This document shows, piece after piece, positions 1,634-30,907 of a stretch of DNA of 64,000 bases. This stretch comes from Polytrichum commune. Lineage: Eukaryota > Streptophyta > Polytrichopsida > Polytrichales > Polytrichaceae. Where the stretch lies: contig OX485808.1 of assembly GCA_950295325.1 (NCBI GenBank), forward strand, positions 7,876,501 to 7,940,500. Reading direction: 5' to 3'. How positions within the stretch are numbered: position 1 is the stretch's first letter; each line of letters opens with the position of its first letter. Under the pieces are notes generated by a model that searched no databases, was not told the origin of the DNA, and saw only the letters and a program-made list of their open reading frames with translations. A program made the position numbers and the translations under genes.

Positions 1634-2912
1634 GTGAAACCATATGCATTTTCCATACTGGAACCTGCACATGCAAAGTCTCATGCACAAACAGCCTCAG
1701 TACGGAAGGCAGCCAATGATAAGGCTAGAGAGGATCGTGCTATAGCGAGAGACTATCGGAGGAAGAAAGTGGAGAGAAATAGGGATTGGTTAAGATATGT
1801 CATAAAGTTACACAAAGAACAAACCGATAGTGAAACAACTGAGGGAGATCACATTCCGGTTGAGGACGACACCTCAACAGGCATATCATCACCTCTTAAA
1901 CCACAACAATTAAATTTTGGGTCAACTTCAGGAGAATCACAAAACCAGCCAATACAACCTTCTCAGATTTTCCTAACTCCGCAACCACCACCACCACCCC
2001 CAGTACCACCACCACTTCCAATGGCGCAACCAAATCCGAATCCTCGTATTACTAATGTAGTACACATTCCTTATTTTTTAGGACGGCCAGGTGCTGATCC
2101 TGATACACATATTGCTAAATTTGAAGTAACATGTGCTGCGAATAGCATTCCTCCTGCTAAATTTCAAGAGGTCTTTGCCGCCTCTTTGCAGGAAGATGCC
2201 TTCGCATGGTATTTAAGGCAACCCGCGTTTGCGGATTGGAATGCATTAAAAAATGCCTTCCTAGATCATTTTCGACCCTTAGGTTTTGCTAGTAGTTTAA
2301 AAGAGAAACTACGAACCATAAGGATGGGTATAAATGAACGGGTGGACAACTATTACGGGCGGATGCAAGATATCCTGCAACGTATGGGAGTTCACCAAAT
2401 ACCGGATAACTTCCTTATGAGCATTTTTATTGGAGGGTTGTATCCAATAGAGTTGAAAACATATGTGAAGGAAGGTCGTACGGCAACATATGCGCAAGCA
2501 TATGCTCGAGCCAAAATTTGGGAGGAGTGCCGTTTAGAAGACAACTTAGTCATCTATACGGACAACACTTACTCAAATAACCCTATACCTCCCCATATGG
2601 GAACTTTCCCCATAACTAATCAAAACCAACATTATATAACGGATATGCATCCTTCCACCACTTTTACCACACCTATACTTTCTAAACCGGCTGGGATGAC
2701 GTCCTCAACCCATGACCCCACCATAGCTAAACATGAAGATGCTATCATGAACTTAACTAAACAATTGACATAATTGTCAGTTAAAGTCATGAAAGGAGCA
2801 CCAAAACGACCCCAAGTTACTAATGAACGCACAAATGTATGGTGCACGAATTGTAAAGGGCATGGTCATGTAGCTAACGAGTGTCCTACACCCCAAGGCA
2901 TACGAATCAAAT
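1634..2912 (+). pseudogene. gag: gag, capsid part and first zinc knuckle (5' half, interrupted by element A)
   Basis: The open frame 1634-2773 is entered without an ATG, so the true start lies upstream. It encodes a basic N-terminus, a proline-rich linker (PPPPPPVPPP near 1984-2018) and a retrotransposon gag/capsid domain (about 2130-2530) with motifs AWYLRQP, FLDHFRP and FIGGL. An in-frame TAA (2771-2773), best explained by CAA to TAA, is followed by more coding sequence with a CX2CX4HX4C knuckle (CTNCKGHGHVANEC, 2842-2883). The frame runs directly into the TIR of element A after codon AAA (2909-2911) and continues at 20145. Product: virus-like-particle structural protein of the retrotransposon. 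Confidence 0.85.
2909..2912. repeat. Target-site duplication of element A, left copy (AAAT)
   Basis: AAAT precedes the TIR at 2913 and recurs at 20145-20148. Removing the element plus one copy restores an unbroken gag frame reading ...GIRIK-CTYCGG..., which supports a 4-bp duplication. Confidence 0.8.
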
Positions 2913-2940
2913 AACACTATATTCGTTAAATTGAGACTTT
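2913..2940 (+). repeat. Element A left terminal inverted repeat
   Basis: Twenty-eight bases identical to the reverse complement of 20117-20144. Identity stops at 2941, where the left end continues TTGGGC and the right end continues CTCTAG. Confidence 0.9.
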
Positions 2941-3039
2941 TTGGGCATTTTGAGACATTCACATAAATAAGAACAAGGATAAATGGAACACATATTGGAG
3001 AAAGTTGTAAGATGCGAACACTTTGTGTTGGGTATTTAG

Positions 3040-3325
3040 AACAAGAACCCCATTAATAACTCATATTTGGGATTGTTTAGGATGAGCAATCCAAACCTTA
3101 GGCCAAATTGAAGGGGAAATCTTAAAACATTCATATTATCGCACACAAAATATGAGATCTTGTATGAATATGTTTTAGGTAGGGCACTCCAAACCCTTAG
3201 ACCATATTGAAGGGGAACTATGTGAACCAATATAATATAACATACAAAATATTCCAAACTCATATTTGTGATGGTTTAGTTAGGGCAATCCAAACCTTGG
3301 ACCATATTGAAGGGGAAATCATGTG
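3040..3325 (+). repeat. Element A left subterminal repeats (three diverged 22-bp motifs)
   Basis: Three units of roughly 100 bases each contain a 22-bp inverted motif starting GTTTAG and ending TCCAAAC (near 3075, 3172 and 3276), followed by a segment like CCATATTGAAGGGGAA. Motif length and arm layout match the internal copies with arms GTTTGGGTCG/CGACCCAAAC, so these look like diverged members of the same family. The right end has matching copies (TTTGGAGTGCTCTACCC near 19935). Subterminal repeats of this kind are typical transposase-binding sites. Confidence 0.65.
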
Positions 3326-3459
3326 ACACTTATATTATTGCAAAAAAACATACAAAGTATGGCATGTAAAATGCATAGCATGCTAACACCACACATACAT
3401 TGGATAGTGCGACCCAAAATGATGTTGCCTATGGCCCAAAACCCTACGCCTACTATGGC

Positions 3460-4281
3460 CTATCTAGCCTTGGAGATTGCCTCTTTTTCTTTTGCTTTTT
3501 TTTCTTTTGCCTCTTTTTCTTTTGCCTCTTTTTCTTTTGCCTCTTTTTCTTTTGCTGCGGCTTCTTTTGCTCGCATTGCTTCAACATTCCTGAAAATCTC
3601 CGCCCCGCGACTATAGCCATTCTTGGGGTGACCGCCATCCATAAGACATTTTGGAGTCCGTCGGCCGCCCGAAATATACGTCGAAGAATTCGAATACGAT
3701 GAAGTGGATTGTCTCGCATTTCTGGTCATGGCGTACATACGCTCGAACTCGATGGACGCACTAGACCGCATAGGTTTACGGGTGGGAGCAACCTGCAACG
3801 CGCCATTGCAAGACCACATGTGTTAGTTTAGGGAGGAAGACCCAAACGTGTCACACGATCATTTTTTAAGTGCAAAATGATTGTAATGCGCGGTTAACCA
3901 TGTTTTAGAGAGGGGGGGGGGGTTCACCTTGTCACCGGGGGCGTTCCCATCGGAGTTGGCAAGGAGGGGCAAGGCGTCCCGCAAAGGAATAGGAAGGGTT
4001 CCACTCTTCGTTGGCCGTGCGTCCATCCGCAGCCGCCGTTGAGGTGTAATACTTCCGCCGGGCCGAGAGGGGGATGTCCGGACGCATTTGCGATTTATGC
4101 CCTTGAGCGGCGACGGGGACGGAGATCGCCGTAAGATTTGCTTGGGTGGGGGGCTATCGACGACGCCGGCGTCAATAGGCTCCTTGGAGTAGTCAATGGT
4201 TGACGCGGCGTCGTAAACGGTCTCGTAGAAGAAGCTCCCCAACTCTGACTCGCTGACGATGTCAATCGAGGGCTCCAAACG
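3460..4281 (-). CDS. Hypothetical two-exon gene with (EKEAK) repeats, element A
   Basis: Exon 4281-3928 (118 codons, after acceptor GCGCCAG) joins in frame to exon 3792-3460 (after acceptor GTTGCAG) across a GTGAAC donor; stop at 3460. The first exon has a Ser/Pro/Arg-rich stretch (SPSPSPLKG). The second ends in a charged helix-like tail of repeated EKEAK units from a CTTTTTCTTTTGC-type tandem repeat (3480-3560). No first exon or ATG was found; the gene could be a 3' portion of something longer, or belong to the neighbouring gene by alternative splicing. Function unknown; coiled-coil or nucleic-acid binding is only a guess. Confidence 0.45.
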
Positions 4282-4387
4282 CTGGCGCAAAAAAGGAAAC
4301 GAAACAAAACCCAAAGGAAGAGGGTTTGCTAGAGCGCGTGAAAATCAAGATACATATGAAGCATATATTACACAAAGTGGGCGGGCG

Positions 4388-4416
4388 CATACACACACAC
4401 ACACACACATACACAC
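4388..4416. repeat. (AC)n microsatellite
   Basis: Runs of ACACACAC interrupted by AT, just past the stop of the four-exon gene on the minus strand, within its presumed 3' UTR. Confidence 0.9.
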
Positions 4417-4424
4417 GTGCTGCT

Positions 4425-7400
4425 TCAAATGAGCTTGTTAAATTTCGCGTGAGAGAACAACTCTCTGTACAAATGGTCTCGTGGATCCAAGTATCTCTCG
4501 CCTATCGGATTATTCCTAACAAAATTGTTTACAGGTAGTCCGCTTCCCTTGAGCGCCTGGAGGTATTTACTAAGGTCTAACAAAAATCGGTCCCGGACCT
4601 TCTCGACCGTCCACGTAGGGCAAACTATTAAGTTGGCCGTCGGGTTCAACATGTTCTTTGCGGCGATGTCGTCCACCATGAGCGTGTTCTCCCGGGTGGG
4701 ACGGACGTCGTAGGGGACACCTATCAATGACGGACGCTGGTCCCAAAAAATGGGCTTCAAGACCTTGAGGTATTGGGGGGAAGCGGGGTTGTTTGGTTTT
4801 TTGACGACTTTGCCGTCCGGTGTGTACAATATTCTACAGGCTTCCTGTGCTAGGACCATGCAGGGGGGCTCGATGCCCTTGAAGATGAACTCCACGACTG
4901 CATTGGTGTTCTCGGCCTTCATGGAGCTCCACACGACCACCCACCATCGTTGTTGGGCGATCTGGAGGAAGGTCCGAAGCCACGGGCGGAGGTGAACTAG
5001 CTTGCTCTTTATGAACGTGGGCGGCCCGTCGTAATTCGCGTCCTCGGGTTTGCAAAAGGCCACCGTGGGGGTCCTCGGGCAATGAACGCATTGGACGAGG
5101 ACCCCGTTGAGGTCTAACACCAGGAACCGGGTCTTAGGCGGCAAAGGTGGAACGGGTAAAATGGGGGGGACCATCGCGCTACCTTCCTCGCTTCTTGGAG
5201 AGGCCCGGCGGGGAGCCGCGACGCTATGCTCCGATCCCTGTGGAGACGAGCGACATAAGGCGGGGGAAGACTATGTCATGCTATGTCCACTTAAAGTGAA
5301 TACAATATTTTCTGTGAAAAATACAAGAACCACTATGCATAGGCGGCCATACAAATGCAAGAGGGGGCAAGAGGAAAAAATATACATTTGAACACGAAAA
5401 CAAACATAAGAGCACAAAATAATAATTTTATTGTTTGCAATGCTCTATGTACAAAATGCCTAGGGGTGCGAAGCCGCGTTGAACGATCCGTTCAAACTAT
5501 CCTAATTCAACATCTACAAAATTGTGTGCACGCCTCCAAGTTCGAGTAAAATCGTGGGACGGGCGACGTTAGTGATCGTCGGGGGGGGGGGGGGGGCTGA
5601 AGGGATGCGAGAGCGGATGGACGGGGTGGGGGCAGTTCCTCCTAGCTAGGGGGGACACGACCACGGCAACAAGACAATAGACCAGGAGTTTGGGTCGAGC
5701 GACCCAAACTGAGGAGGTCTCAGTGTATTACCTCTCCCTGGTCATGCCTGGACGCCATGGAAGCCTCCACCGCCTCCGCTTGTCGTTCTCTCTTGCCACC
5801 GCCTTCTCCGACGATGTCAGCACCCCTCTCCTGCAAGCGCTCAGTGTCAGGACCTTCTCCTAACCCAACCTCCGCATGTGCATCATGCATAGGTTCATCG
5901 ATTGGGATAGGAGTAGAGGTATCACCAGGCCCTCGAGGACCTTCAACATCAGGCATGGGTGTGTCTCTTTCAGACCCATGCTGGTCCATTGAAGACTGAG
6001 CGGTAACGGGGTTTGGGTCGGCCGACCCAAACTCTCGTGCATCATGAGATTGGCCTTGTTGCACTGTAAGGGGGGGCGGGTTTGGGTCGGACGACCCAAA
6101 CATGTGGGGGTCGTCCTGCTGATGGGGCGGGGGGATCACCAGGGGCGGCCGAAGTGGTGGGGGGGTCACAGGTCTAGAAGACCCGGGAAGGCGCCATATA
6201 TTGGGGTCATCCGCTTGTTGAACCGGCGGATACGGACGGACGTGGGGGGGAACCATGTGCTGAAAGCTGAAGGAGGATTGCGGCACGGGCTGCGGAGGAA
6301 TGTTCTGGGGAGGGAAGCCGGGGGGCAAGTGTGGAAATGAGCCCGGGGGAGCCACCACCAAACCCTGCGCCCACATGCCTCGAATCACTTGCGTGATCAA
6401 GTCCGCACTAGTTGGAGGTTGCGCCAATGCCCGCAGTCGCTCTTGCTCCAATAAGAGAGCCCTTAGCTCTGCCACTTCGTTCCGCACTGAGGGTTCTTCA
6501 GCAGCGGCCTTTTGCAAGCGGACGCGTTGTTCTTCGTCCCTTAACATCTTCTCGTTGGCTTCTTGCACGGTGAGGACTTCCGGCTTCACCTTCACCATCC
6601 CTGCGAAGGCACCTAGAGAGGGAGGGTCCGACCTGAGCCGTTTCGCGAGCTCCATGTCGTCCTCGTCTTCGCTGCTAATGGCAATTGTCTCCTCGATGGC
6701 ATAGTCGCCATAGAGTTTCTTGCCTTTTAGTTTCCTCCTCTCCCTGAACGCGGCAGTCGCATCCCTGGAGTACATGTCGCGGGCATCATCAACCGTCAGG
6801 ACGGGCACCAACTTACTTTGTGGAGTTGCTACCCGCATTGCCTTCTTTCGTTGAGGGGCTTCAGATTCCTGAGTGAAGCCTGTTCCCCCTTCTTCGACCT
6901 CGCCCTCCACTTTAGCCTCTTCTTCCTCCTCTTCCACCTCCTCATCCTCCTCCCCCTCCTCGTCACGCGGTCGCCGAGAGGATGTGCCTGGATGCACTTG
7001 GACCAGAGGCTCTGGTACAGCAGCTGGAACCCTTATGGCCAATTCTTCAGGGTTGACACGCCTCGCCTTATCCAGCGGGCTCTCACCCCCTTCAACAGTC
7101 TCCTCGGCGTAGCTCCCAGGGATCCAGTCTAGTATATCCATCTTCTTCGCCAATGATTTTTGGGCCTTGTAGAATTGGATGTCATTAAGGTCTACATAGC
7201 TGTACACGTTCAGCCCCAGCATCTGCAGAAATCCCACCAGATGTTATTATATGGCATAACATGTGATTCCACCGAAAAGGGGAAGTACATACAAGACCTA
7301 ATATCAATTGCAAAGGTTATAGTTTGGGTCGAGCGACCCAAACTAGCATCAGTGTTAGTTTGGGTCGAGCGACCCAAACTAGCATCGGTGTTAGTTTGGG

Positions 7401-10378
7401 TCGCTCGACCCAAACTATGAAAACAATTATGGTAAGGAGCTTACCATGCCAGCGAAGACGGGCTTGGTGCCGCCGAAGACGTTGAATATACAGTCCCCTC
7501 TTCTCGTCAAGGCCCTCATTATTCGGAGATAGAATTCCATCCGCAACTCGTCCGAATGGTATATGGCATATTTTGCCTCGTCGTAGAGGGACTTACTTGC
7601 GCCCAGGCCTTCTGGAACTTGGAATAGTTTCTGCATCCGGGTTATGGGGTGGTTCTCCACCTTCAGCAAGGTTGCTTTGAACACAAAGTACAAGCACAAC
7701 AAATTCATGACTTTGGTTTTCTTGTCCTTTAGTGTCGTGTACACCCCCTCCGCCGGTGCAGCAATGTAGTGAGACTTAGACACCGCATACTCAGGCTGCA
7801 ATTTCCTCACAATTTCATACACCTGCTCTGCTCTCCTATCCTCTACTATCCACAACCACATATCGACCTCCCTAAGCTTAGGGCTTGCATACTCCACGAA
7901 CTTCGACATGAAGGGCTCGTAGAAGGGTGTACCCATTGTGCCCTCAAACGTACTCCCAGGAATGCTCCGGAAGTCTATTATACCAAAGGGGAACCGGTCC
8001 GCTGCTCTTACTCGTATTTCTTTCCTGGAATCAAGGCCGGGCCATCCCTGGATTTTAATAGGGTCAAAATCGACAAGGTTGAAATGCGCATCCCCCTCAA
8101 AACTTACAATCTTCTTCTCCTTTATAAAGTTTGAGAAGGCACGCGTCGAGTGTTCTGGAAGAGCCAGGTTCTTCCCACCCTTCACCAGTTTTGACTTTAG
8201 GAAGTCTTCTCCTGCCTCCCTGATCAGAGCTGCCATGGATGCACTGGTGAAGTTGTATTCAGCCTTGAACGCTCTCCAGTTCACCTCGTTCACCTCGTCA
8301 TCGACAAAAATGTTCTTTTCCGGGATTAGCTTCTGCAGCTCCTGGACGATCGTTGTTTTCTTCTTCCTATTCTCCGCCCATTCCTTCATTGTGTAGCATG
8401 AAGGAACAAAGGATTTCGGCTTGGTGAAGACTATTTTGGGGTACACCCAAAATCTCTTAGGGGTCGGGTTGTTGTGCAAGATGTGCGTTGCCGCCTTCCC
8501 CATTTCCGCCTCCGAAAGACCCTGCAGACTTCTAAAGAATTCTCTCATGAGAGGCTTCATCGTCTTGAATCGAGAGGACGAGTTGAAGAGGTTGCATGTG
8601 TCAGGATCCATGAGATCCCCTGTCTCGTGTTTCTCAAACACTGTCTTCCACTTCTGCCAAACCATGTCGGATGATGTAATCAAGTAGATCTCTCCTCTTA
8701 GCTCATTGTACTTCTTTTGCTTGTGACTTGAATTGTCAATTGAGGAGAATTTGTTTATCATTTGGTATTTGAAAAGCTGCACAAGAGCATAGAATGCGTG
8801 TTAATTCTCAATATGTTGTTTCCAAACAAAGAAGAAAAATGATGAACAACAAACTGCGTAGACAAACACAAACTAAAACACAAGGTTTGGGTCGAGCGAC
8901 CCAAACTGTATGAAGAAACACAAGGTTTGGGTCGAGCGACCCAAACTGTATGAAGAAACGCAAAGTTTGGGTCGAGCGACCCAAACTGTATGAAGAAACC
9001 CAAAGTTTGGGTCGAGCGACCCAAACTCTGTTTGAGAAACAATGCTCACCTCCCACTTTGGATTCTTGTCTTTTGCATTCTCCCTTTCCTTGGGAGGCCG
9101 GCCGTAGAACTCCCACACATCCCGCGATGCCATGATGTTCCTAATCCAAGAAGCTTGATATGCCCGCTTCTTGTTATTCATGTTGAAATAGCGGGAGATA
9201 TCGCTCAGCCGGGTTTCGTCGTCCGACCACACGACCAATGCCTTCCATACCTTCAATTTTTCCTTTAGACCATTAGGATCATTCCACTCCGTCATCAGTT
9301 GAAGTTTCTTTGAAGCTTCAACACTGTGCTGACCGTCAATCAGCCAAAAATCGCCTTTCTCTATAGAAGGCCACATATCCGGTGTAGGCATTCTTTTGTG
9401 TCCCTGAGGCATGACAACAATAGTCTGCCTATCATGTTTAAACTGGTCGCTCACCATCTGGGCGATTAACCAATCAACATACGCATCTTCCTTTGCCCGA
9501 ACGCACTTCTCTGGTGGCGCTAGGTGGTATTGTGCGATGTTGACATCAAACTTGAATTCTCTGCCCATGAAAAAACAATGTAAACACTTGGTGTCGAAAT
9601 TGTTGAGTATTTTCTGGATCTCCGATGGCTCCACTCCTTCCCCGGGCTTGGGCATACGTAGCTCCGGTGAAACAGGCTCATCTGTCATGGCAGATACTGA
9701 CTCTCTCGGCCTCTTAGATGGTGTCGTCTGCCGGCTTTGTGATGGCGTCGGTGTTTCACTATCAGCAGGAGTTGCCGTAGGTGTTGTTCTCCTCGAGTCA
9801 GCTGGAACCGGTCGGGGCTTCCTCACTGTTTGAGGTCTTGACGACCCTGCGCCCTCTTCAGCAGTCGCCTTGCGCCTCACAGCTTGTTGAGATTTTGACT
9901 TGCTTTGCTGGGTCTTGTTTATTGCGTTGATTGCCTGCTTAAGTTTAGTGAACCTGGTTGCAACCTTCGTGTTTGAAATGATCGCATCTATGAAGATTGT
10001 ATCCGGTTTAACAATGTCTGGCTCAGCGCAGGATTCCTTCACGTATACCGGATCGAATGGCTCGGCTTGCTCATGCATGAACATGTGCACATTTTCCAGA
10101 GAAGAGTTTTCCAGGATGACGTCAACGTGCTCTCCTAGAGCATGAACTGATGCCACCTCCCATCCCGTCAAAGCATCCCATGTGTGTTGCTCCTCCGTGC
10201 CAACCTTCAAAACAAGGAGGATTTTGAATTGAGCTGCCTTTACTACAAGAAAGGACCATGCAATTACAAGGTCTTCTTTTGCTACGTAGGATTGGTTTTT
10301 AGGAGTTTCGTGCTCCTGCCAGATCGCGTCTGGTGCCGGCTTGAACCATCGTTCTCCAGGTTTTTTCTTGGGGGGCAT
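4425..10378 (-). CDS. Four-exon fusion gene: ParB-like DGQH + N4/N6 DNA-methyltransferase-like + FCP1/SCP-like HAD phosphatase
   Basis: Exons 10378-9050, 8776-7445, 7222-5732 and 5237-4425 have good GT/AG sites, all phase 0, and sum to 4965 bases (1654 residues plus stop). Exon 1 holds a Ser/Thr/Pro linker and a ParB-like motif (FWLIDGQHSVEA, about residues 344-355). Exon 2 carries a candidate motif IV (FGIIDFRSIPGS, about 707-718). Motif I lies near the exon 2/3 junction (NVFGGTKPVFAGM, then MLGLNVYSYVDLND); this IV-then-I order is typical of beta-class N4/N6 methyltransferases. Exon 3 is acidic and proline-rich. Exon 4 has a HAD fold of FCP1/SCP type (DLNGVL about 1426, VVWSS, LMVDD), with Asn where the second catalytic Asp is usual. 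An acceptor (TTGCAG) abuts the ATG, so a 5' UTR intron is likely. No stop interrupts it. Activity is inferred only from motifs. Confidence 0.75.
5688..5709. repeat. 22-bp inverted motif, intron 3 of the fusion gene (centre AG)
   Basis: Arms GTTTGGGTCG and CGACCCAAAC separated by AG. It lies in intron 3 (5731-5238). The same intron has a G-homopolymer near 5581-5597. Confidence 0.9.
6011..6101. repeat. Two 22-bp inverted motifs inside coding exon 3 (6011-6032, 6080-6101)
   Basis: Both copies have intact 10-bp arms, with centres GC and GA. Read on the minus strand they add the related peptides FGSADPNP and FGSSDPNP without breaking the frame of exon 3. Confidence 0.85.
7322..7415. repeat. Three tandem 22-bp inverted motifs, intron 2
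   Basis: Copies at 7322-7343, 7358-7379 and 7394-7415, spaced exactly 36 bases apart; centres AG, AG, CT. They lie in the 222-base intron 2 between the two exons that together form methyltransferase motif I. Confidence 0.95.
8881..9026. repeat. Four 40-bp tandem units carrying 22-bp inverted motifs, intron 1
   Basis: Motifs at 8885, 8925, 8965 and 9005, all with centre AG, each followed by a TGTATGAAGAAAC-type spacer. Identical 40-base spacing indicates tandem duplication. Intron 1 is 9049-8777. Confidence 0.95.
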
Positions 10379-10402
10379 CTGCAAGTAGAAATACATATGT
10401 TA

Positions 10403-11125
10403 GTTTCGGTCGGGCGACCCAAACTCTTTCAAATCATATAGGCTTATGTCTGGGTTTAGTAACATTTATATATGGGGTTACTTTTCACAGGTTTGGGTCG
10501 AACGACCCAAACCTGTGCCTACAATGGCTAATGAATAATATATTATTTGGCTACGAAAACCAATCTTTAAGTTCATGGATACAACAATCATCACGAGCTA
10601 CTGTTCTAGTTGTGGGTCATTTCATTATTGCTTGGGTGTTTGAGTTGTTGTTTATAAGTGTAAGTATTGTTCGTAAGCAGTAAAAATTTACGCAAAGTTT
10701 GGGTCGTTCGACCCAAACTTTGTAGCGGTATGGAATGATCGGCTATGGCCTTAGATCATACCCAAGATGATGATTACCTAAATTATGAATTACCATTTCA
10801 TGCGCTGTTTGGGTCGAACGACCCAAACTCTGCAGATGGATTGGGTCGAGCGACCCAAAGCATGTGCTAGTTTGGGTCGAGCGACCCAAACTCTGCAGAT
10901 GGATTGGGTCGATAGGGTTAGATATTCACCCAAGATGATGATTAAATTAATTATAAATGAACATTTGATGCGGAGTTTGGCTAAACCCTAGACCCAAACA
11001 ATGCTTATGGTTTGGATCGAGCGACCCAAACTCTGCAGATGGATTGGCGCCCACGACCCAAAGCATCTGCTAGTTTGGGTCGAACGACCCAAACCATCTT
11101 CAGAGTTTGGGTCGAACGATCCAAA
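10403..11125. repeat. Cluster of scattered 22-bp inverted motifs upstream of the fusion gene
   Basis: Copies at 10403-10424 (centre GG), 10491-10512 (AA), 10697-10718 (TT), 10807-10828 (AA) and 10870-10891 (AG), with shortened or mutated copies near 10840, 11010, 11070 and 11104. They occupy the presumed promoter and 5' UTR of the minus-strand gene. The copies at 10491 and 10697 sit in longer inverted repeats. Confidence 0.9.
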
Positions 11126-13042
11126 CCAGCAGCAGAGTTTAGTGTTTTAGGGTTTCAAACTGAAGTTTGGGTCGTCTCTCGAAACACTTTTGATTCCAGA
11201 GACCTTTATAATGTGTTTACGCAGCATATACAATGCTTATGCATTGTAGATGCTGCGAAACTCTAAAGAAATTGACACACATAAAGAAGTTGAAGAAATC
11301 ACCTTGCTTTGCAAACTACACAACAAGCTGCGGTTGGAAGCAGTTCTAACAAGCTAGTCTTGGAAGCTGATTCTAGAAAGGATTGGATATTAGAAAACTA
11401 AGAACGCCTCACAAACATTCACTCTGAATTGAAGAAGCTTTCACAAACATTCACTCAGAATTAAACAATCCCTCACAAACATTCACTCTGAATGTAACAA
11501 GTGTTTACAAACATGAACAAAGAAGCTATCTGAAGGCCACACATGCATCCTGATTTTCGAACAATCATTCTAATTCCGAAATCACTCTACACTCACACAT
11601 GAATGTTTCTAAGACCAGGAGGAACTGACACAACCACTTTGAAACAACACTCACACTCCAAAACAACAAAGACGTTCTGAAATGGCTAAAATGTATAGAC
11701 TTTAATACAAAAACAAACCCTAAACTCATACTACACTCAGAACTCGGTCAATGCGCACTCAATGAACAACAAAATAGATCAAAAGAAGAGGAGGAGTGAA
11801 AGAGAGAATGAGATAATGATGAAGAGGGAAGGAGAGAGGGAATGCGAGTTCGACAAGGAGAGAGAGAATGCAAGGGAGGAGGCGGCGCTTTCAAGAGCGG
11901 CGGCGCCTCCAGAAAGTATGAGGAACGTACAAAGGAGGAGGAGCTTGGAGCGGAGGAGAGAGAAGGAGAAAGTGCGGAGGGGAGAGTGAAAGGGGGAAGG
12001 TCACTCAAGGGCGGGACCCATTCGGGCCGGCGCCTTTCGTGTCCGTTCGGCTCATGGCCGCCACGTGTCACGGGGCGCTCCATGGCCCAAACGAATACAC
12101 AATCTGAGCCATTGGAGAGCCCCAGGCCCATCGACGGTCGATAGGCCTCGCAGGTGGGTATCCTTTAGCCACCTATCCCATACCATCCTTGAGGATACTA
12201 AAAAACCTTTATAGCCTAAGGTTTTTAATTTAATGGTCCCCCGATGGATTTGCTAATATCAAATAATGAAACTGTATTGGTTTTGTAATTTTAGTAATCT
12301 ACACATATGCATGAATCGAGAATGATAGATACTAGACTAAGAGGAGTATTTAATAATTATATTGCAATCCTCGTAGGCAATTACATAATGGAATAATATA
12401 ACTATGGTAACCATTTACACAATGAATGGTTTCGAGTTATATATTGTAATTATCTATGAAGGTTGTTGGTAAAGGACAATGCTATAGCCTACGATGGATC
12501 CGTTAACACATACCATTGAACTAAATCTAATTATACAAGTTTATGTAGTGTCATTCATTATAATATGGAATTATGCAATATTAAGTGTTGACAACTTAAT
12601 ATCATTGTTGTTTGCGAAAAGCAACAAAGATGTTGTTTGATTTATAGCATGATGGAACATTAACATACTTATTTACAAGTTTACATATTTATGAGATACA
12701 AATATATTGAAGCGGGTGTTTTTGCTGAAGAACCCAATTAAGAACTCATATGAAGATGGTTTAGGTAGGACGACCCAAACATTAGACAATGTTGTTGTTG
12801 TTCATATATTTAGTTGAGACAAGATAAAGTCTACAAATATTGAATATAGTGATAGTAAATGAGAGAAGCACCATGTATACAAATATGAAGCTATCAAATA
12901 CTAATATGTGGAGTTCAACATTATATGAAGCCATTTAAGCAATCACTTTGTTGTTGGATGATCCCTCCACATATATTAAACAACATATCTTATTAGGAAA
13001 TGAGGCACAAATTACAGTAGATGGTGTTCTATATGGAAGCCA

Positions 13043-13591
13043 CACGGGTAGGTCATTCTAAGGCATTTTTGTGCACCACGTGTGGCTCAGGGTTTTTTGT
13101 TTTGGGGCTATTTACCTTCAAGGGTTGAATTAAAGCCTCCCTATAATTACTTGAATTTCAAAAATGGCCCATTTGTTTGCACCCTTCCATTACTTATATT
13201 GTCCAAGTCACTGCAATTTTTTGTACTCTATATTCCTTTTAAGTAATAAAAGCTAATCTACTTCCTGTTAAGGGAAACCATGGAAACAAAGAAGGGTGCA
13301 AACAATAATATCATTGCAAACAAAGTTATGAAGAAAACACATAGGAGACCATAGCAAACATTATACTAAACATACCTTCTAGGAACCTTATCTTCAGCCC
13401 CTATATTAATTTTACAAAAAAATAATGGCCCACATTTTATGTCCATCTAACTTACTTATAATGGGATTGTCTACATTTAATGGCCCCTTCATTATTTGGA
13501 ATTCCTTTATAATTTTTATTTCAAATGATTTCAATCCTCTCTATATTATGCCGCACGTCGTTTTTAAAATGCACTAAGTGACCTACCCGTG
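13043..13591. mobile_element. hAT-like MITE, 549 bp
   Basis: Perfect 13-bp terminal inverted repeats CACGGGTAGGTCA / TGACCTACCCGTG. Flanks GGAAGCCA (13035-13042) and GGAAGCAA (13592-13599) form an 8-bp duplication with one mismatch. The interior is AT-rich and non-coding. An 8-bp duplication fits hAT; the family assignment is inference. Confidence 0.7.
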
Positions 13592-13616
13592 GGAAGCAAC
13601 CCTGAACAACTACGAG

Positions 13617-13648
13617 GGTGTAGGGTGTAGGGTTTAGGGTTTAGGGTA
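13617..13648 (+). repeat. Short TTTAGGG telomere-like run
   Basis: Consecutive GTAGGGTGTAGGGTTTAGGG-type units followed by one further TTTAGGG, the plant telomere repeat, directly after the MITE flank. Too short to be more than an interstitial telobox-like stretch. Confidence 0.6.
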
Positions 13649-14755
13649 TATAAATGTGTCTTGTTGCACTCGAAGCCATAAATGAATGGCGCATAGGTCA
13701 AATGAGGGGGCCAAGTCGCTTGTGGTTCTAAAAACAAATGTATATAGATATCACAATAGTCTAATTCATGAACATGAACGTTGGTTACATTTCATGTTAT
13801 GTTTGTTATGTATGTTATGTTACGTCGTAGATGCGTTCATATTTAGTGTATAAATCTCTAAATATCTTATTTAGTGTAGTGACACTAGAACACACCAACA
13901 TGTATTTAAGGACATGTTCTGCTCAACTTGCATTGAATAGATACAACTATATATGTTTAGATTTTTCATCAAACATTTGTTAAAACAAATAAAGTTGATT
14001 ACATTTTTTTTGGCAAGCCAAATCAATAAAAACTATAGGTACAAAACACAACTACAATAAGTATGATATTTAGTGTTTGATACACTAAATACAAGTGAAT
14101 ACACAATATATCAATAACCATATGAAAGTAATAAACATTAAATATAAGCTATAGTAATATGTGGCATTGACATGTTTGAATTTAGTGTTAGTAAGGATGT
14201 GAAAAGAAGAAATATACGTGAGAGTAGAAGGTAGCAACACATTTACTTCTAACACTAACTGTCATGGGATTGAAAATTAATGTTGAGCATGTAAGGGTGG
14301 TAACCATAGTCCGCCAAGAGCCTAAGACTAGTGTAAATGCAGCCTACAAAATTTGTGACTTAGCCTATAAAATTTTGAAAGTGTAGGACAAAGAGCCTAT
14401 GGACAATTTTAAAACATAGGATATCAACCTATGTGGTAAAAAACATGTAGGAAATTTTGCCTACAAAGTTTTTAAAAGAGCGGATTTTAGCCATTCATCC
14501 TTCTTCAAATTGGGAAATTAGTTGGCCTAAGTACATATCTTTAGGCTAATACTCGGGGCTCTTGAGTGGCACATAGGCGGATATCAATAATAGCCCTGAC
14601 TCCCTCCCCGTCGATCTTTACAAATACCACAGCCCAAGCCCCATCACCGCATAGAGGTTGAATCAGAAGATGGTGAGGACTTTCACCCTTAAACTCATTT
14701 GAATTTTAGCAACCTTTCATAACTTATAATCAACTCTTTAAAAAGGAGTTGGTTA

Positions 14756-14826
14756 ATCCTTGGCCTTCAAACGTGGTGAAGGGCTTAGCCAGGTTCAATT
14801 CCTGCCAAGGATACCACTTAGTACTC
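14756..14826 (+). other. tRNA-like relic lacking an anticodon arm
   Basis: Acceptor-like arms ATCCTTG (14756-14762) and CAAGGAT (14816-14822) pair over 7 bp, followed by ACCA. Between them are a D-arm-like hairpin CTTC/GAAG and a box-B-like GGTTCAATTCC. Only about 7 bases lie between the D-like and T-like arms, so there is no anticodon arm and it is not a working tRNA. A tRNA-derived SINE fragment or chance similarity are both possible. Confidence 0.35.
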
Positions 14827-15519
14827 AAATTTTGAATTTAAAGCCTACAACATTAAAAGATATGAAGGATTTTAACCTACTAAAAATTAGTTTTAAAGGC
14901 AATTGGCAGGTAACTTAAAAACTCAAAAGGTTTTCAACTTACAAAAATTTGATATTGTAGGATGCAACCTATGCCATGAGGGAAATAGCCTATGCCCTTT
15001 TAAAGAGGTAGGCAATTAACCTCAATAACTTCAAAAACTTTTCGGACACTGGTGGTAACAACACTACATATAATCAAATCCACACATCATATTTTGTGTA
15101 GTTATTTAATAGCGGAATTAGGAGGTTAGTTGTCCAAGGTCATTTGATGGTTGGCGCCACGAAGAGGCAAGCTAAATATGGATGCTCTATTACCAACAAG
15201 AAGCGGGAAATTTTGTCAGAAGGTTTGAACTTAGGTTTAGGGTTTACGTTCGGGCGGGAAAGGGATCCAAAGAGGAAGGCCAAGGCGGAGGCGGGTAGTA
15301 TAAAGTACCAAACCCCCCAAACTTTGCTCCTTTTTTCTCATCTCTCCATTCTGAAATGGTTGCAAGCTCTCTCAAGTAGTGGTGGAGTGCAAGGTTCGTG
15401 TATGCATCCGTTGATGAGTAGCTAATTACAACAGCCATGCACGGCCTGAATTCTTCCAATTAGTATCCACGTAGCTGAATATGGAAGATTACCGCAATTT
15501 AAGGCGGAATTTGCGGAAT

Positions 15520-16354
15520 GTTTGGGTCGCTCGACCCAAACCCACCCCCATAGTGAGGTTTGGGTCGAGCGACCCAAACCCACCCCTATCACGGGCTGGG
15601 CCTGGATTAGCAAGCCCATCCTGTCACGAGGTTTGGGTCGCTCGACCCAAACCCACCCCCTCTCACGGGCTGGGCCTGGATTAGCAGGCCCATCCTGTAA
15701 CGAGGTTTGGGTCGCTCGACCCAAACACACCTCCATTGTGAGGTTTGGGTCGAGCGACCCAAACCCACCCCTGTCACGGGTTGGGCCTGGATTAGCAGGC
15801 CCATCCTGTCACGAGGTTTGGGTCGCTCGACCCAAACCCACCTCCATTATGAGGTTTGGGTCGAGCGACCCAAACCCACCGCTATCACGCGCTGGGCCTG
15901 GATTGCCAGGCCCATCCTGTCATGAGGTTTGGGTCGCACGACCCAAACACACCTCCATTGTGAGGTTTGGGGCGAGCGACCCAAACCCACCCCTGTCACG
16001 GGTTGGGCCTGGATTAGCAGGCCCATCCTGTCACGAGGTTTGGGTCGAGCGACCCAAACCCACCCCTATCAAGGGCTGGGTCTGGATTACCAGGCCCATC
16101 CTGTCACGAGGTTTGGGTCGAGCGACCCAAACCCACCCCTATCAAGGGCTGGGTCTGGATTACCAGGCCCATCCTGTCACGAGGTTTGGGTCGCTCGACC
16201 CAAACACACCTCCATTGTGAGGTTTGGGTCGAGCGACCCAAACCCACCTCCATTGTGAGGTTTGGGTCGAGCGACCCAAACCCACCCCTGTCACGGGTTG
16301 GGCCTGGATTAGCAGGCCCATCCTATCACGAGGTTTGGGTTGCTCGACCCAAAC
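15520..16354. repeat. Array of about fifteen 22-bp inverted motifs upstream of the transposase
   Basis: Motifs recur at about 38- and 72-base spacing, first at 15520-15541 and last at 16333-16354. Centres are mostly CT or AG (one CA), often alternating, with spacers like CCCACCCCYATCACG and GGGCTGGGCCTGGATTAGC. Long open frames across the array translate the repeat in both directions and are not genes. It ends about 190 bases before the first plausible transposase ATG, so it occupies the promoter region. Confidence 0.95.
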
Positions 16355-16546
16355 CCACCCTCATGCACACAATGGGGATGTGCATAGACGGATCCTGAAT
16401 AAACTGTTGTGCGCTCCATCTTTTTGGAACCCATCAATATAATATTCATACAACATGTGTTATGATAAGGTTTCTGTGTTTTTCTATTGGACCCTATAGC
16501 TTTTGTCAATTCTTTACAAGGTTCCATGTTCATGTGTGTAGGCAAA

Positions 16547-19500
16547 ATGCATGGGTATACTGGAAGAGGGTATTCGTCTGGAGAAGACATGGCCACTTGG
16601 CCATCTGCATCTGAGGAAGAGCTAGACATTGTCGGGGAGGCTACTATGGATGAGAGTTCAGATGAAGAGCATTTCGATATACCTTCGCGTTCCGTACCGG
16701 ACTGTCCCATTCCAGAGTGTGCCGTGCTTTCAAGAGCTTCATGGGTGAATTTGGATGTGTTACTTCTTAATGACAATGGGGTTGTTGTGGCGGAGGGTAT
16801 CTGTCGTAACACCCATCCACAAGATTGCATTGATCAAAATCCGCTTGGCACCGAGGACGTTGGGATTGTCATATTGGAGTCACTCGTTCCTTCTGAGGTG
16901 GATCCCACTCATAGGTTCTCCCTCCGCAGGTGGCCATTGAGGAATGTCACGACTGATGGAGTTAGCTTGCGTGAACATGAGCAACGACACATGCAACTCG
17001 AAAAGGAAATGCAATCAAACATGCGGCCACGCAAGGGTCAAAGAAAGTACGAAACTGTGGCACGTCCTTCTCCATCTGCAACTGATTGTAAACGTCAAAG
17101 GCTGCTTGGGGAGGAGTCCATAAGAGAAGTTGCCACAAAGGATTGTTGTGTGCATTGTTGTTGCCAATTGTTTCCAAGGGATAAATTGAAGGCCATCCGT
17201 GAAGAAATGTGGCTTGGAGATTTTCGTCTAAGATCCACAAAAAAACTTGATGTCCATAGGGCAATACATGTGAATGGGACGGGTCGCAAGGTAATCACCA
17301 TTGAAAGCATAGACGTGTGTTGTAAGGCATGGTACACCATTTACGGTGTGTCGAAGGTGGACTTCTATAGACAAGCTGCTTATGCCAAGGAAGGCCGCCG
17401 GTCCCGTCACCATGGGAACGTGGGTTTAAAGAAACCTAGGGAAGCAACAAGGCAAGCAACGGCAACTCTAGCAACCATCATTGTCCCCCTTGCTGATGCA
17501 ATGCCGCACAAAACACGCACACTCACAACCGGTGAAAAGGTTGTGGAGAAAGTTCTTCCCACAGGCACAAAATGGAAAGACATATTGTTGGACGTTAATG
17601 CAGTTGGCGAGAAGATTGGGTTGGAGCCAATTTCATTGTCAAAATTGAGTGCAATCAAGAAACAAAACTTTAGCGAATACATTACAAAAAGACGAGGGGA
17701 CAAATTTGCCAGGTGCTCTAATTGCGAGAAGTTGAAGCGCCTTCGGGATGCACACACGATGGGTACCGAGTCATATGCAGCGCATCAATTGAACTATTTC
17801 AAGCACGTAAACATGCAAGAGGCACACCGTAATGATTACTACACAAATAGAGCTTTGTCCATCTCCAGGCCCTTGGAGGTTCTTACGGTCATCCATGACA
17901 AAATGGACCATGCCAAAACAGCCTCCCCATGTTTTGCAAATCGAATCAAGGCCACGGATGGGTTTTTTAAGTTGCCTGTATCGGTTACAGGTGAACTTCG
18001 AAACAATGTCATGACATACCCTAAATGTTGTGGTTTTTTATTCCGTGATGTACTGGAGAACATGGATTCCTTCATAATGGTTTATTCATACATAGATGCT
18101 AATCACGTTAGGTTGGCATTGCAGGAATGATTGCACATGGACACGGTGATGTCAAGTTTGCTCATTATGCTCTTGATTTGTATCCAGCGGATTCAAACCA
18201 CACGATAGGATCATTTGCAAGGCTTTTACGTGATTTAGAGAAACCACCAGCCTATTCTTCAGGATTGTTATTTGAGAACACGGGTTCAACACCTTTATAT
18301 GAAGCGGTGTTGGATGGAAAAGATGTATGCTTGCATTCGTTGCCCGAGCCACCCAATGAACCCGTGATTGCCAAGAAGTTGCCTCCAACTTTGCGTGTCC
18401 AATTGGACAATTGTGCCAAGGACAATAAAAGCAGATATGTATTTGCATATTGGTCGTTGTTGGTTGCGAAAGGCATTTTCAAGGAGGTTTTTGTGTCCTT
18501 CCTATTGGTAGGCCACACGCACGATGATATTGATGCATCTTTTGGGCGGTGGAGCATGAAGTTGCGGGAGGAGGATTTTCCTACAATCCCATTATTGATG
18601 AAGTCGTACATGGATTTGGATAACGTTCCCGTCATCCCCCATATGATTGAGGAGGTGCCAGACTTCAAGGCATTTATAGAACCTTATATTCGAAATGGAG
18701 CTCACCGATTGATCGGGCATACGAAGGCACAACAATTCCGGTTCTACATGCGTGACGATGGTATCCCGGCCATGCAATACAAGTTGTTGTGCACGACACA
18801 AGACTGGAGCCCGCCGGAGGGTCTTCTTGTGTGGCGCGTGGATGCGGATGGGAAGACCATGTTACCGGATGGGGAGCCTAGCCCTTGTAAGCCAATAGCC
18901 ATGAAGAATTTGGAGGATATTTTGAAAGGTATATCAGGCTTCATACAATATTGGGAGAGTTTGAAGATAGCGGATGTTGGCGGATCATGTTGGCATCGTT
19001 ATGGGAGTTGGATACATTATTGGACACGTGTTCGTGCCGCCTTGGTAGACCTCCACCAAGATAGCCCTCATACTTTGAGGCATGGATTTTGGCCACAAAC
19101 ATGAGTCGATGTACAAGCTTCAGAGGCTAGTCTTTTGGGAAATGGAGAGGTTCGAGAGGAGTTTGATGTGGATGACCATTACGTGGGGCCTGCTAGTAGT
19201 CGTCCGCCACCATCTTTCCGCATTGCAGTGGATTGTCATGAAGGATATATGCTCATTTTGCGTCCTGGAGACGAGACATATGTGAAGCCAGTGTGGGTGG
19301 CAAGAGCTTTGTCCAAACCCAATTCTGTAACTTCCAGCCCTCATTTTCGACAAATACAAGTGGAGTACTACCGACCGACGGCAAGGAATGAAGATGTGAT
19401 TCGGCATTATGCAGGCTGGGATACAAACCCTAACTTTCGGTGGAAGGTGGATTCTGAGCACGGTCCATCTTGGGTAGATACAGATTCCATATTCATAGCA

Positions 19501-19611
19501 TGGAAACCACGGAAAAATCATAGTGGATCAGTGTCCATCCCTCAAAAGTACATAACTTTTGCAAAAGACAACCTTGCTCGGATCGCAGAAGAAGCAACCC
19601 ACGTTGAATGA
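16547..19611 (+). CDS. DUF7869-type transposase of element A (one in-frame TGA)
   Basis: The frame to 18130 gives an acidic N-terminus, a Cys-rich CCVHCCCQLFPRDKL segment, a WYTIYGVSKVDFY region and a C-x2-C pair (ARCSNCEKLK). The frame at 18127 carries the catalytic-looking core: YPADSNHTIG, QLDNCAKDNK and LVGHTHDDIDASFGRW, which matches the DUF7869 pattern (DNC...NK, GHT..D..FG) of an RNase-H-like transposase. A TTGCAG acceptor at 18124 suggests a short intron joins the two. The same frame passes an in-frame TGA (19102-19104) into a C-terminal domain (19135-19611; PVWVARAL, VEYYRP, WVDTDSIF). The relic at 46.3 kb reads TGT at that position, so the TGA is probably a recent mutation. The start ATG (16526 or 16547) is uncertain; a TGTGTAG acceptor just upstream suggests a 5' intron. 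Confidence 0.75.
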
Positions 19612-20116
19612 GAAGTTGGTAGGATTGTGTTAGCATGATTATAGTGTAAACAGTAATTCTACGAACATATATTACTCATATGTGTGCTCTTCAAAATTGG
19701 GGCAGAGTTTGGGTAGAACTTACGAATACTATATTGTTTGGGAGTTGGATGAATATCCATTTACTATATTTCAATACAAATGTGAAGTTCATTTTTTTAT
19801 TAAGTTTGGGACTAAATTGTCCATTGAAAAAATATGCATTTATTACATGCACTTTGTATGTTGCAATGTCTATATTCTATGGAGCATGCTAATAATAGAA
19901 ATCATTATATATATATTTTTGGGTGAAACTTGTTTGGAGTGCTCTACCCAATGTGTTTTTGTTGATGAAATTGGTGTTGAGTGCTCTACCATATGTGCTT
20001 ATGTCCGCACATCATAGGTGTGGGATATTAGAACATTTAATATATTTGAGATTGTTGACAATATAGTTTCAGGCATCTTCATGTTGTTTGATCCATATAT
20101 TAATTTGAGACTAGAG
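19612..20116 (+). other. Element A right subterminal region
   Basis: Non-coding and AT-rich. It contains diverged half-motifs (GTTTGGGTAGAAC near 19707, TTTGGAGTGCTCTACCC near 19935, GAGTGCTCTACC near 19980) that mirror the left-end repeats, and a small inverted repeat TTGAGACT/AGTCTCAA at the TIR edge. Confidence 0.7.
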
Positions 20117-20144
20117 AAAGTCTCAATTTAACGAATATAGTGTT
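20117..20144 (-). repeat. Element A right terminal inverted repeat
   Basis: Exact reverse complement of 2913-2940. It is followed by AAAT (20145-20148), the second copy of the target duplication. Confidence 0.9.
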
Positions 20145-20882
20145 AAATGCACTTATTGTGGGGGTAGCCACTCGGTGAGTGAGTGTTGGAATCTAAGACC
20201 CCAACGTTCTGTTAATCAAATTGATGATAACAGAGACCGTCCATGGCAAGAAGAAAGGTCATGACCAAGGCCAAATTCTAATTACAATCCCAAAAGAAAT
20301 TTTAATAAACGGCCTGTACCTATTATTTTTCCAAACCGACCCAGCTGGGGACGGACAAATGGTCCACCCAACTGGAACGGGCCTCCATACAATGCTAACT
20401 CTCGAAACTACAATACTGGTAATAATGATAAAAGGAAAATACCGGTTTGTTATAGATGCCAGGAGTTAGGACATTATGCCAATGAATGTCCCAACCCCAA
20501 AAAATCACAAGACTATGTTCCTTTGTGTGGTAATTGTAAAACTGCCGGTCATCCTACCGATGAGTGCCCTGAACCTAAAAAGGATGAAAGAGAGTGGAAG
20601 ACAGGCAAGCATGTCCGAATTCAGGATGATAAAGAGGACAGAGGATCTAGAAATGTAAACCATGTCCAACATACGATACACCGAATCACCCCACATCCTG
20701 GTACGACTGTCAACGCGGTTACCACTCGATCAAAACGAGTAGTAGACCCCTTACCAGTCCCGGATGATAATAATGATGAAAAGAGTTTGTCATATGAGTC
20801 CCAAACCAATGGAGACCCACTTGTCCATTTATCACCAATCCAAGTGAAAGCTAAAGGGGCGGTAAATTCGAACCCCACAGTG
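20145..20882 (+). pseudogene. gag: gag nucleocapsid continued: three more zinc knuckles, up to element B
   Basis: Continues the frame broken at 2912. Knuckles: CTYCGGSHSVSEC (CX2CX3HX4C, common in Athila-like gag), CYRCQELGHYANEC and CGNCKTAGHPTDEC (both CX2CX4HX4C). A basic, Asn/Arg/Pro-rich RNA-binding stretch lies between the first and second. The frame through 20523-20882 is open and meets the CACTA end of element B after codon GTG (20880-20882); it resumes at 32005. Some frame decay occurs between 20210 and 20500. Confidence 0.8.
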
Positions 20883-29600: not shown

Positions 29601-30907
29601 TGTTTGGTTTTTGCATGAAGTACATGCATCAGTACAGAGGAACTACACATCGTGTATGGGACGCTGAAGAGGATGCAACCATGAACGATGAGATTCTCCG
29701 TTGCAACTCACAACAAAAGCGAAAGATGTCCAACGAATTCCGCAACTATGCGCACGCTTTTGTTTTGGACAATGCGTCGTCATTGAAGCGTTGCAGAGAG
29801 TTAGTGGAACCCATACTTACTTTACTTCAAGCCTCGATGATATATACTGTCACCCAATGCAAAATACATGTGCCATGTCAACTGTGACATGCAGCAGTGC
29901 ATGAGGATGTGTTGGACATGATGTCCCAAATGACATTCTTTCTGAGATATACGCGTCACATGTGATATTGCAGATGATGGCCATCACACTTTTGCATCAC
30001 CTTTATATACATGCAAGGGCCATTTCTAACCACAATTTAATGGCACACAACCTTGTGCAGGGAGTTTATGGCAGCTAGAGTTTCGTGTTGGAAAGAGAGG
30101 GAGGCCTTTCGGAAAATGTGTCGCCGCCGGCATCCAACTTTGGCAGTGCGGTATCCGTTGGAACTACACAATCTTCCTCCCTTTGCAACATGGTTGACGT
30201 CGCATCTGTCACGTCAGCGTTCCTTCGGCGAAGTTGTGGACGTCGATGTTGCGCAATACGCGCAACCTCCCGAGCGATATGCAATCTCACACCGGAAAAT
30301 GTATGCGTTTGGCATGCACTTCCGAGTACGAGGTGCTGAGGGTGGCCTCGTCACGCGCGATTCATGTGTGGTGGCCTCATTTACACGACAAATACCATGG
30401 GGCTTGAGAAATGGGCGACCCATAGAGACAACCGAGGAGTATGTGGGCTACATCGAAGAGATCTTGGAGCTAGACTACCGAAATCATTGCACCACTGTGC
30501 TAGTGTGCGATTGGGTTCGCCCAAGTGCAGATCCTCGACACCCTAACATCACACGGGATCAATATGGTTTCACCGTTGCGAACTTCAACCGCATGGATGG
30601 CAAAGTGCACTCAAACTCTTTTGCATTTCCATTGCATTGTCAACAAGTTTTTTTCTCCAATGACCCGACGAGGCCAGGATGGAAGGTTGTATGTCGCACG
30701 GACGTGAGGGGTAGACGTGGGCAACTACAAACCAACCAGACCTTACCGCGCATAATCGATGTCGGCCACGATGCTGACTTTGTGGGTTTACAACCACAAA
30801 TGCAAGATGTAGAGCCCACTAGAGAGCCCGCAACGGACGGCGGCATGCACATCCCAGCCTCATTGGATGTTCGTGGGGAAGAAGAAAACAAAGGAACACA
30901 GTATTAG
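26659..30907 (+). pseudogene. tnp2: TNP2-type transposase of element B (frameshifted)
   Basis: An N-terminal CPCKDCKGG...HH segment resembles Transpos_assoc. The Transposase_21/TNP2 core follows: CPNGCILYDEEY, CPKCTARRW, LALTLDGVNPF, WPVLILIYNFEPW, PLLKELQELWHGV, then in another frame WTISDFPAFG...CPCC. The frame change near 27978 is a 1-nt indel. The exon ends YWQ|GTGATT (about 28410). The next starts HLLERHILDVMYCEKN (after acceptor CTTGTGCAG, about 28638). A later exon (29255-29887) is DUF4218-like (PPTFMNVMTHFPVHLVEHL, GPVHCRWMYPIERYMKTL). The last (30059-30907) is DUF4216-like (VLVCDWV, YGFTVANFNR, QVFFSND). The donor near 28990 looks like GC rather than GT. Role: cutting and joining of CACTA ends. 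Confidence 0.9.

Follow-up and report, generated by a model that had tools for sequence, protein, structure and literature searches.

A ParB/methyltransferase-fold cargo gene and matching palindromes suggest a self-recognition regulator in a DUF7869 transposon family of Polytrichum commune

What does a gene that joins ParB-like, methyltransferase-like and phosphatase-like domains do inside a plant DNA transposon? The question is raised by a 17.2-kb element of Polytrichum commune, found in a 64,000-nucleotide stretch (the window; contig OX485808.1 of assembly GCA_950295325.1, forward-strand positions 7,876,501 to 7,940,500, here C6:7876501-7940500), for which a sequence-only reading had proposed that this cargo gene modifies the DNA of the element. 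The follow-up analysis, which covered the 408-Mb genome (64 contigs), revealed arrays of a palindrome that accompany the cargo gene. We consider it probable that the transposon in the window is active, or was until recently, and has its own sequence-specific self-recognition regulator, resembling VANC of the Arabidopsis VANDAL elements; the cargo protein would be this regulator and would read the palindrome.

The palindrome, overlooked in the sequence-only reading, occurs in the window as 28 exact copies of a 20-bp sequence, TTTGGGTCG-NN-CGACCCAAA (palindrome 1), all within the element and none elsewhere in the window. Thirteen copies lie upstream of the transposase gene and five upstream of the cargo gene; cargo introns 1, 2 and 3 hold four, three and one, and two more stand in frame within cargo exon 3 (Table 1). 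Since the 297 exact sites in 11 elements (the window element and ten others) are flanked by G (293) and C (287), the site is better described as 22 bp with a variable 2-bp spacer, GTTTGGGTCG-NN-CGACCCAAAC, giving GTTTGGGTCGNNCGACCCAAAC as the clade-1 palindrome site. Each of the 11 elements carries 17-38 exact copies, those of the ten others at broadly corresponding places, and 12,519 sites (≤1 mismatch) were detected genome-wide, compared with 0 for the control. Between subfamilies, the identity of the spacers in introns 1 and 2 barely exceeds that of shuffled sequences (0.50-0.60 versus means of 0.43-0.45 in three pairs of representatives); despite this divergence, exact palindromes recur in every intron 1 and 2 compared.

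The element belongs to a family of hundreds of copies with terminal inverted repeats (TIRs). The perfect 28-bp TIRs and the AAAT duplication named in the sequence-only reading were both confirmed; genome-wide, the TIR was matched 589 times in forward and 595 times in reverse orientation (≤2 mismatches; control pattern, 0 and 0). Ten other elements were taken whole (c1-c10, the first ten adjacent TIR pairs less than 20 kb apart on contig C1) and the junctions alone were taken for 20 further TIR pairs; together with the window element, 30 of these 31 elements show identical 4-bp flanks, varied in sequence, at both ends, the fixed-length duplication in independent copies that marks a TIR DNA transposon. 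The sole exception is a 36.9-kb TIR pair, which may comprise two different elements. Copies c3 and c9 align with the window element end to end at 96-99% DNA identity (longer blocks, repeat arrays excluded), and among 826 candidate left ends, that of the window counted in, the 40 with the highest scores include 36 that share 99-100% identity with the first 401 bases of the window element, indicating that part of the family moved recently.

The transposase, a short EKEAK-repeat open reading frame (ORF), a further ORF at 3859-4314 and the four-exon cargo gene are present in all ten other whole copies. None of the ten lacked the methyltransferase-like gene or carried it outside the TIRs, although c7 has lost part of cargo exons 2-3 through an internal deletion. 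The three genes first listed for the element were thus found as described, while the claim that it holds only these did not stand, as the ORF at 3859-4314 and the 28 palindromes are also inside. The four phase-0 cargo exons join into 1,654 codons with no internal stop, and all four are open in the window and in c6; GT/AG borders recur in the ten other copies wherever exon edges were recovered, with one exception in c5, whose exon 1 is preceded by AA instead of AG. Exon extraction was over-extended or cut in c1, c5, c7, c8 and c10, whose stop and length counts were left unused. The cargo gene is under purifying selection between subfamilies and single copies decay. Where the synonymous rate (dS) was finite, the ratio of nonsynonymous to synonymous rates (dN/dS) between subfamilies was 0.03-0.22 overall, with 0.14-0.21 in exon 3 and 0.12-0.22 in exon 4; for the window element against c4, c6 and c8, dN was 0.12-0.14 in exons 1-2, with a dS of 1.5-3.7 in exon 2 and from 4.7 to undefined in exon 1 (dN/dS ≤0.08), so synonymous sites of these exons are near or past saturation. 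Comparisons broken in frame (window-c10 and c10-c5 in exon 2, c1-c8 in exon 3) were skipped, and c2 and c7 lay outside the pairs. These low ratios indicate that the cargo gene has been maintained through the history of the family, and the low dS of exon 4 between the window element and c8 (0.24) shows the elements to be mosaic.

The ParB and methyltransferase labels of the sequence-only reading proved right at the level of fold. The core of cargo exons 1-3 matched no Pfam or NCBIfam family, and PDB sequence searches yielded nothing useful; the DUF7869 transposase and the NIF/HAD-like end of the four-exon gene were recovered by Pfam directly. Fold searches placed exon 1 in the ParB/sulfiredoxin superfamily and exons 2-3 among the beta-class/MT-A70 amino-methyltransferases, the start of exon 3 presumably continuing the methyltransferase-like domain. 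Amino-methyltransferases carry a catalytic motif IV of the form (D/N)PP(Y/W), such as DPPY, and a motif I of the form FxGxG. The cargo protein has no such motif IV: the corresponding position, placed by strand order rather than by structural alignment, reads DFRxxP in 33 of the 35 nearer and 38 of the 44 other relatives searched, as well as in the window element and in the sister element M3 described below, and the motif I position reads FGG[TS]K in cargo relatives. The pattern [DNS]PP[YFW] was absent from the relatives searched, apart from one occurrence in P0011, inside its proline-rich tail. Because DFRxxPG stands where DPPY would be expected, the methyltransferase fold was probably converted from a catalytic to a binding role.

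These motifs bear on the alternative closest to the original proposal, in which the cargo protein would be an active orphan enzyme that recognizes the palindrome and places N6-methyladenine or N4-methylcytosine on the element's DNA, thereby protecting it or controlling transposition. All 50 matches listed in the methyltransferase fold search are amino-methyltransferases (including M.BceJIV, MTA1, CcrM, METTL3 and PvuII), and the motif IV aspartate is invariant among the 37 sequences of alignment A3, both in keeping with activity. Bacterial fusions of ParB with adenine methylase exist (PMC5512222), and a similar self-modification has been suggested for an Ectocarpus element (PMC12477816). The DFRxxP at motif IV in both clades and the FGG[TS]K at motif I, unlike the catalytic DPPY and FxGxG, nevertheless make active self-marking unlikely in our judgment; DNA modification by the cargo is thus not supported, and the role of the module may be binding instead of methylation.

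If the cargo protein reads the palindrome, the two would be expected to change in concert, and the relatives of the cargo protein point in this direction. Single-sequence and profile searches returned 71 and 77 relatives, respectively, many common to both and none with a descriptive name; no relatives were found in viral contigs with the exon 2 query or in a collection of genome contigs with the exon 1 query. Frame reads of palindrome 1 through introns appear in 30 of the 76 relatives of the nearer clade (45 instances), with none of palindrome 2, TTTACGAACG-NN-CGTTCGTAAA, a second site deduced from the read-through intron reads of the farther clade. In that clade, 18 of 37 relatives show LRTxVRK, YERxFV or xTNxRS, the three reads of palindrome 2 (26 instances), and none shows palindrome 1; not one of the 113 proteins has both, and shuffles predict 0.015 and 0.040 instances of palindromes 1 and 2. 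Both read patterns were written after such sequences had been seen, so the clade counts are not independent tests. An independent test was provided by the genome, in which palindrome 2 was found at 5,060 sites (≤1 mismatch; control, 0). Neither palindrome occurred exactly in viral contigs.

One palindrome-2 locus, M3, was taken for comparison (C1:2448600-2474399, with the left end outside the fetched stretch). Its 28 palindrome-2 sites (≤2 mismatches; 17 exact) are accompanied by no palindrome 1, and palindrome 2 is absent from the 11 clade-1 elements. M3, which is 83-84% identical to relatives P0195 and P0070, matches the window cargo at 34% in exon 1, 37% in exon 2, 30% in part of exon 3 and 43% in the NIF domain, and the two small ORFs at 44% (3859-4314) and 40% (EKEAK; E 4.5e-4). 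Transposase ORF 1 matches at 62% over 373 residues and the right TIR at 24 of 28 positions, the M3 TIR recurring genome-wide in 265 forward and 298 reverse matches. Change has therefore been greater in the cargo protein and the palindrome than in the transposase ORF and the TIR, which suggests that protein and palindrome diverge together and that each family may address its own code.

Judged from sequence, a transposon of a different kind also shares palindrome 1 and has its own ParB-like gene. This element, M2 (11,273 bp; C1:3438314-3449586, spanning L072, L070 and L071), has imperfect inverted repeats (25/30) and a perfect 10-bp duplication, ACTTTTCCAC, just outside its ends; a duplication of this length recalls Mutator-like elements. 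One of its palindrome-1 arrays lies between two ORFs of an unassigned, transposase-like gene and the methyltransferase-like exons. A related locus, L069 (C1:470500-480499), and L070, the middle part of M2, share a ParB-like exon (DGNHR, within WDGNHRFLAW) in a 937-bp stretch of 87% identity, with a palindrome array upstream; neither has the window TIR or a match to the proteins of the window element. In the methyltransferase-like exons of this kind of transposon, motif I is more canonical, VVDLTCSTGASILA, and an unassigned gene bears a SWIM-like motif, CTCPDFTKCPLMHW. The methyltransferase piece of M2 reached only E 0.14 against Pfam N6_N4_Mtase, below the cut-off, and its ParB-like piece had no Pfam match.

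M2 and M3 together bear on a second alternative, that the palindromes bind the transposase or an assembly factor of the transposition complex while the cargo protein acts elsewhere. The largest array of the window element, with 13 of its 28 exact sites, lies directly upstream of the transposase gene, as such binding might lead one to expect. However, transposase ORF 1 and the TIR are kept between the clades while the palindrome differs, in M2 palindrome 1 stands next to a transposase-like gene that gave no match to the transposase of the window element, none of the 120 listed transposase relatives, out of 313, gave a read of either palindrome (few introns covered), and separate subterminal repeats near the left TIR form a possible transposase-binding region. 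We regard this alternative as very unlikely, and the 10-bp duplication of M2 led us to rate it slightly lower than before, with our assessment of the other explanations unchanged. A role at the RNA level, in which the palindromes act as intron hairpins of the pre-mRNA in splicing control or as the target of an MT-A70-like RNA enzyme, seems a shade less probable again: cargo introns hold 8 of the 28 exact copies in the window, and an AG acceptor directly before the cargo start codon means that those upstream may also belong to an intron, but among imperfect copies G-U pairs do not clearly outnumber A-C pairs in the presumed sense strand (22 versus 19; distinct sites, ≤4 mismatches). The least probable explanation is a selfish satellite expansion with no binding protein, which would suit the tandem-repeat structure and variable copy number of the arrays and the lack of extra constancy of palindromes among recent copies, but not the units and spacings that vary by gene position and subfamily (e.g., 36, 40, 45, 57, 64 and 78 bp) around an unchanged palindrome, its presence in the introns of relatives or its two copies in coding sequence.

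The explanation that we favor is therefore control of the family by a palindrome-reading cargo protein, because the arrangement matches that of VANDAL and VANC and because ParB-type proteins, ParB, Noc and KorB among them, act on palindromic DNA sites. In the manner of these proteins, a dimer of the cargo protein would clamp the palindromes through its ParB/methyltransferase region and thereby mark the copies that bear them, on which it would counteract silencing or set transposase and cargo expression, in analogy to VANC on VANDAL elements; an anti-silencing or expression factor is its most likely role. In VANDAL elements, motif arrays that evolve by tandem repetition lie in the introns of VANC and VANB and upstream of VANA, and VANC6 uses another motif (PMC5735166, PMC10398659). 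As in VANDAL21/VANC21 and VANDAL6/VANC6, the window family pairs an element-encoded accessory protein with arrays in the accessory introns and upstream of the transposase, and related families differ in both protein and motif. VANDAL elements belong to MuDR (PMC12730594) and use short motifs in one orientation (e.g., YAGTATTAY), whereas the window family has a bipartite palindrome and a ParB/methyltransferase/NIF accessory protein. It is about evenly balanced, in our view, whether a prokaryote-type ParB and methyltransferase fold has become, within eukaryotic transposons, a palindrome-reading self-recognition device, a parS-like and VANC-convergent language of self and non-self in which protein and palindrome speciate together, families of one genome become mutually blind and the unrelated M2 can share a code. 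If so, VANC-type self-recognition would have arisen a second time, here out of a prokaryotic partition/modification module. With two proteins and two palindromes, transposon escape from silencing without harm to the host becomes directly testable.

Several observations weigh against this explanation. Binding of the palindrome by the cargo protein, like the function of that protein, is something we infer. Palindrome 1 is not exclusive to the window family, being present in L069, L070 and M2, and profile comparison of the ParB-like exons of M2 and the window element did not show homology. Neither read was found in 46 of the 76 nearer and 19 of the 37 farther relatives, many of whose ORFs cover little intron, and the spacers of intron 3 are 65-74% identical between subfamilies, which is not random. 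Within subfamilies, cargo dN/dS was 0.15-2.5 on very few changes (window-c3, window-c9 and c1-c8), indicating that single copies are little constrained. Among recent copies, C/T-type changes were commoner at CG (1.4-4.2 times) and CHG (1.6-4.5 times) than at CHH in seven pairs, from which it follows that the copies have probably been cytosine-methylated and that silencing by this route probably occurs. Two outside comparisons were uneven: changes were 11/35 at CG, 6/23 at CHG and 24/159 at CHH between M2 and L069, and 0/34, 0/12 and 6/506, respectively, between an insert in c1 and L069. In six pairs of recent copies, palindromes were no more constant than the rest (all differences, 29/3640 versus 641/93715), and palindromic CGs were not clearly spared from transitions (10/718 versus 141/7229 elsewhere); conservation of the palindromes is thus visible over long, not short, times.

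The cargo itself is of a known kind, as a ParB-methyltransferase gene on a transposon is already in print (PMC12477816): the 21.5-kb Sola1 transposon Sola1-1_Ec32 of Ectocarpus carries one, green and red algal cases are cited, and in the authors' proposal, proteins of this type would bind the transposon that encodes them and modify it. Likened by description, both are giant DNA transposons whose accessory gene, opposite in strand to the transposase, encodes a ParB-like and amino-methyltransferase protein; unlike Sola1-1_Ec32, the window element has a DUF7869 transposase and a cargo that adds a NIF/HAD domain and departs from the canonical motif IV. It also has a putative cognate palindrome, whereas none is named for Sola1-1_Ec32 in the available part of PMC12477816, nor for ParB-methyltransferase proteins in the open-licence excerpts searched. 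No target is given there for the algal genes; in P. commune a probable one can be read from the sequence, in two versions that occur in two related families of one genome. The bacterial fusions, such as Bce_0392 (PMC5512222), likewise join a ParB fold to an amino-methyltransferase. Fungal KDZ and other TET/JBP-bearing transposons (PMC12730594) resemble the window element as DNA transposons with cargo from a DNA-modification fold, yet their cargo is a TET/JBP dioxygenase and the Zisupton duplication is 8 bp rather than 4 bp; no TET/JBP Pfam match was obtained in 8 ORFs of the window element at E≤0.1.

In contrast to bacterial ParB fusions and clamps, the window gene bears introns and a C-terminal NIF/HAD domain and is associated with a 22-bp bipartite palindrome, and its ParB-like motif is DGQHS, where bacterial ParB has an arginine-bearing motif. 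A 4-bp duplication, as in the window family, is characteristic of the Sola superfamily. DUF7869 is the single Pfam match over the three transposase ORFs at E≤0.1 and their only family match, and no paper on it was found in the open-licence literature searched. Among relatives, the blocks HDKMDH, QMDN...DNK and VGHTHDDID of transposase ORF 2 are conserved.

Table 1. Features of the transposon in window coordinates (a dot in the strand column marks features without strand)
Feature	Position	Strand	Remarks
Left target-site duplication AAAT	2909..2912	.	read in the window
Whole transposon	2913..20144	.	17,232 bp; perfect TIRs and AAAT flanks
Left TIR, AACACTATATTCGTTAAATTGAGACTTT	2913..2940	+	28 bp
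Subterminal tandem repeat	3058..3326	.	unit of ~99 bp, 2.7 units; near left TIR
Short EKEAK-repeat ORF	3460..3819	-	76-99% amino acid identity in 10/10 other copies
Conserved ORF between EKEAK ORF and cargo gene	3859..4314	-	151 amino acids; best match 89-99% identical in 10/10 other copies
Cargo exon 4, NIF/HAD-phosphatase-like domain	4425..5237	-	motif DLNGV; Pfam NIF, E 6.2e-15
Palindrome copy, cargo intron 3	5689..5708	.	one copy
Cargo exon 3, start continues methyltransferase-like domain (predicted), remainder low-complexity	5732..7222	-	two in-frame palindromes inside
Two palindrome copies in exon 3	6012..6100	.	in-frame read FGSxDPN
Three palindrome copies, cargo intron 2	7323..7414	.	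spacing 36 bp
Cargo exon 2, helical region and beta-class amino-methyltransferase fold	7445..8776	-	DFRSIPG at motif IV, NVFGGTKP at motif I
Four palindrome copies, cargo intron 1	8886..9025	.	spacing 40 bp
Palindrome array upstream of cargo gene	10404..11125	.	5 exact and 4 one-mismatch copies
Palindrome array upstream of transposase gene	15521..16353	.	13 exact and 2 one-mismatch copies
Transposase ORF 1	16487..18130	+	probable ATG at 16547 (by reading)
Transposase ORF 2 with DUF7869	18127..19104	+	Pfam E 2.7e-41
Transposase ORF 3 (C-terminal part)	19135..19611	+	94-98% identity in 10/10 other copies
Right TIR	20117..20144	-	28 bp, identical to left TIR when inverted
Right target-site duplication AAAT	20145..20148	.	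read in the window

Further symmetric variants of the palindrome, with GGGCCG, CGGTCG and CGGGCG half-sites, are suggested, for other sources, by the intron reads of P0026, P0034, P0056, P0010, P0015, P0046, P0048-P0050 and P0058, which were judged by eye and excluded from the clade counts. One variant of the CGGTCG type, TTTCGGTCGNNCGACCGAAA, has no exact copy in the genome, and TTTGGGCCGNNCGGCCCAAA is another, likewise read by eye from a few relatives. Several TIR pairs on C1 span 37-44 kb, roughly double the usual size (C1:71171587-71215640 is an example); because the 4-bp duplication is kept in 4 of 5 checked, each may represent one element that has nested insertions or a larger cargo. Copy c1 (L009/L010) has a ~1.4-kb insert in its transposase gene that is 97% identical to the stretch of L069 adjoining the palindrome array. 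Elsewhere in the window, an ORF upstream of the element (1634-2773), relevant to the host gag frame that the sequence-only reading took to be restored, already stops 139 bp short of the element's left end, an ORF of 1,122 amino acids at 59690-63058 has no Pfam match at E≤0.1, and remains of CACTA-type transposases, with Transposase_21 (E 8.9e-34) and DUF4218 matches, occupy 26659-30907 and 49447-50052.

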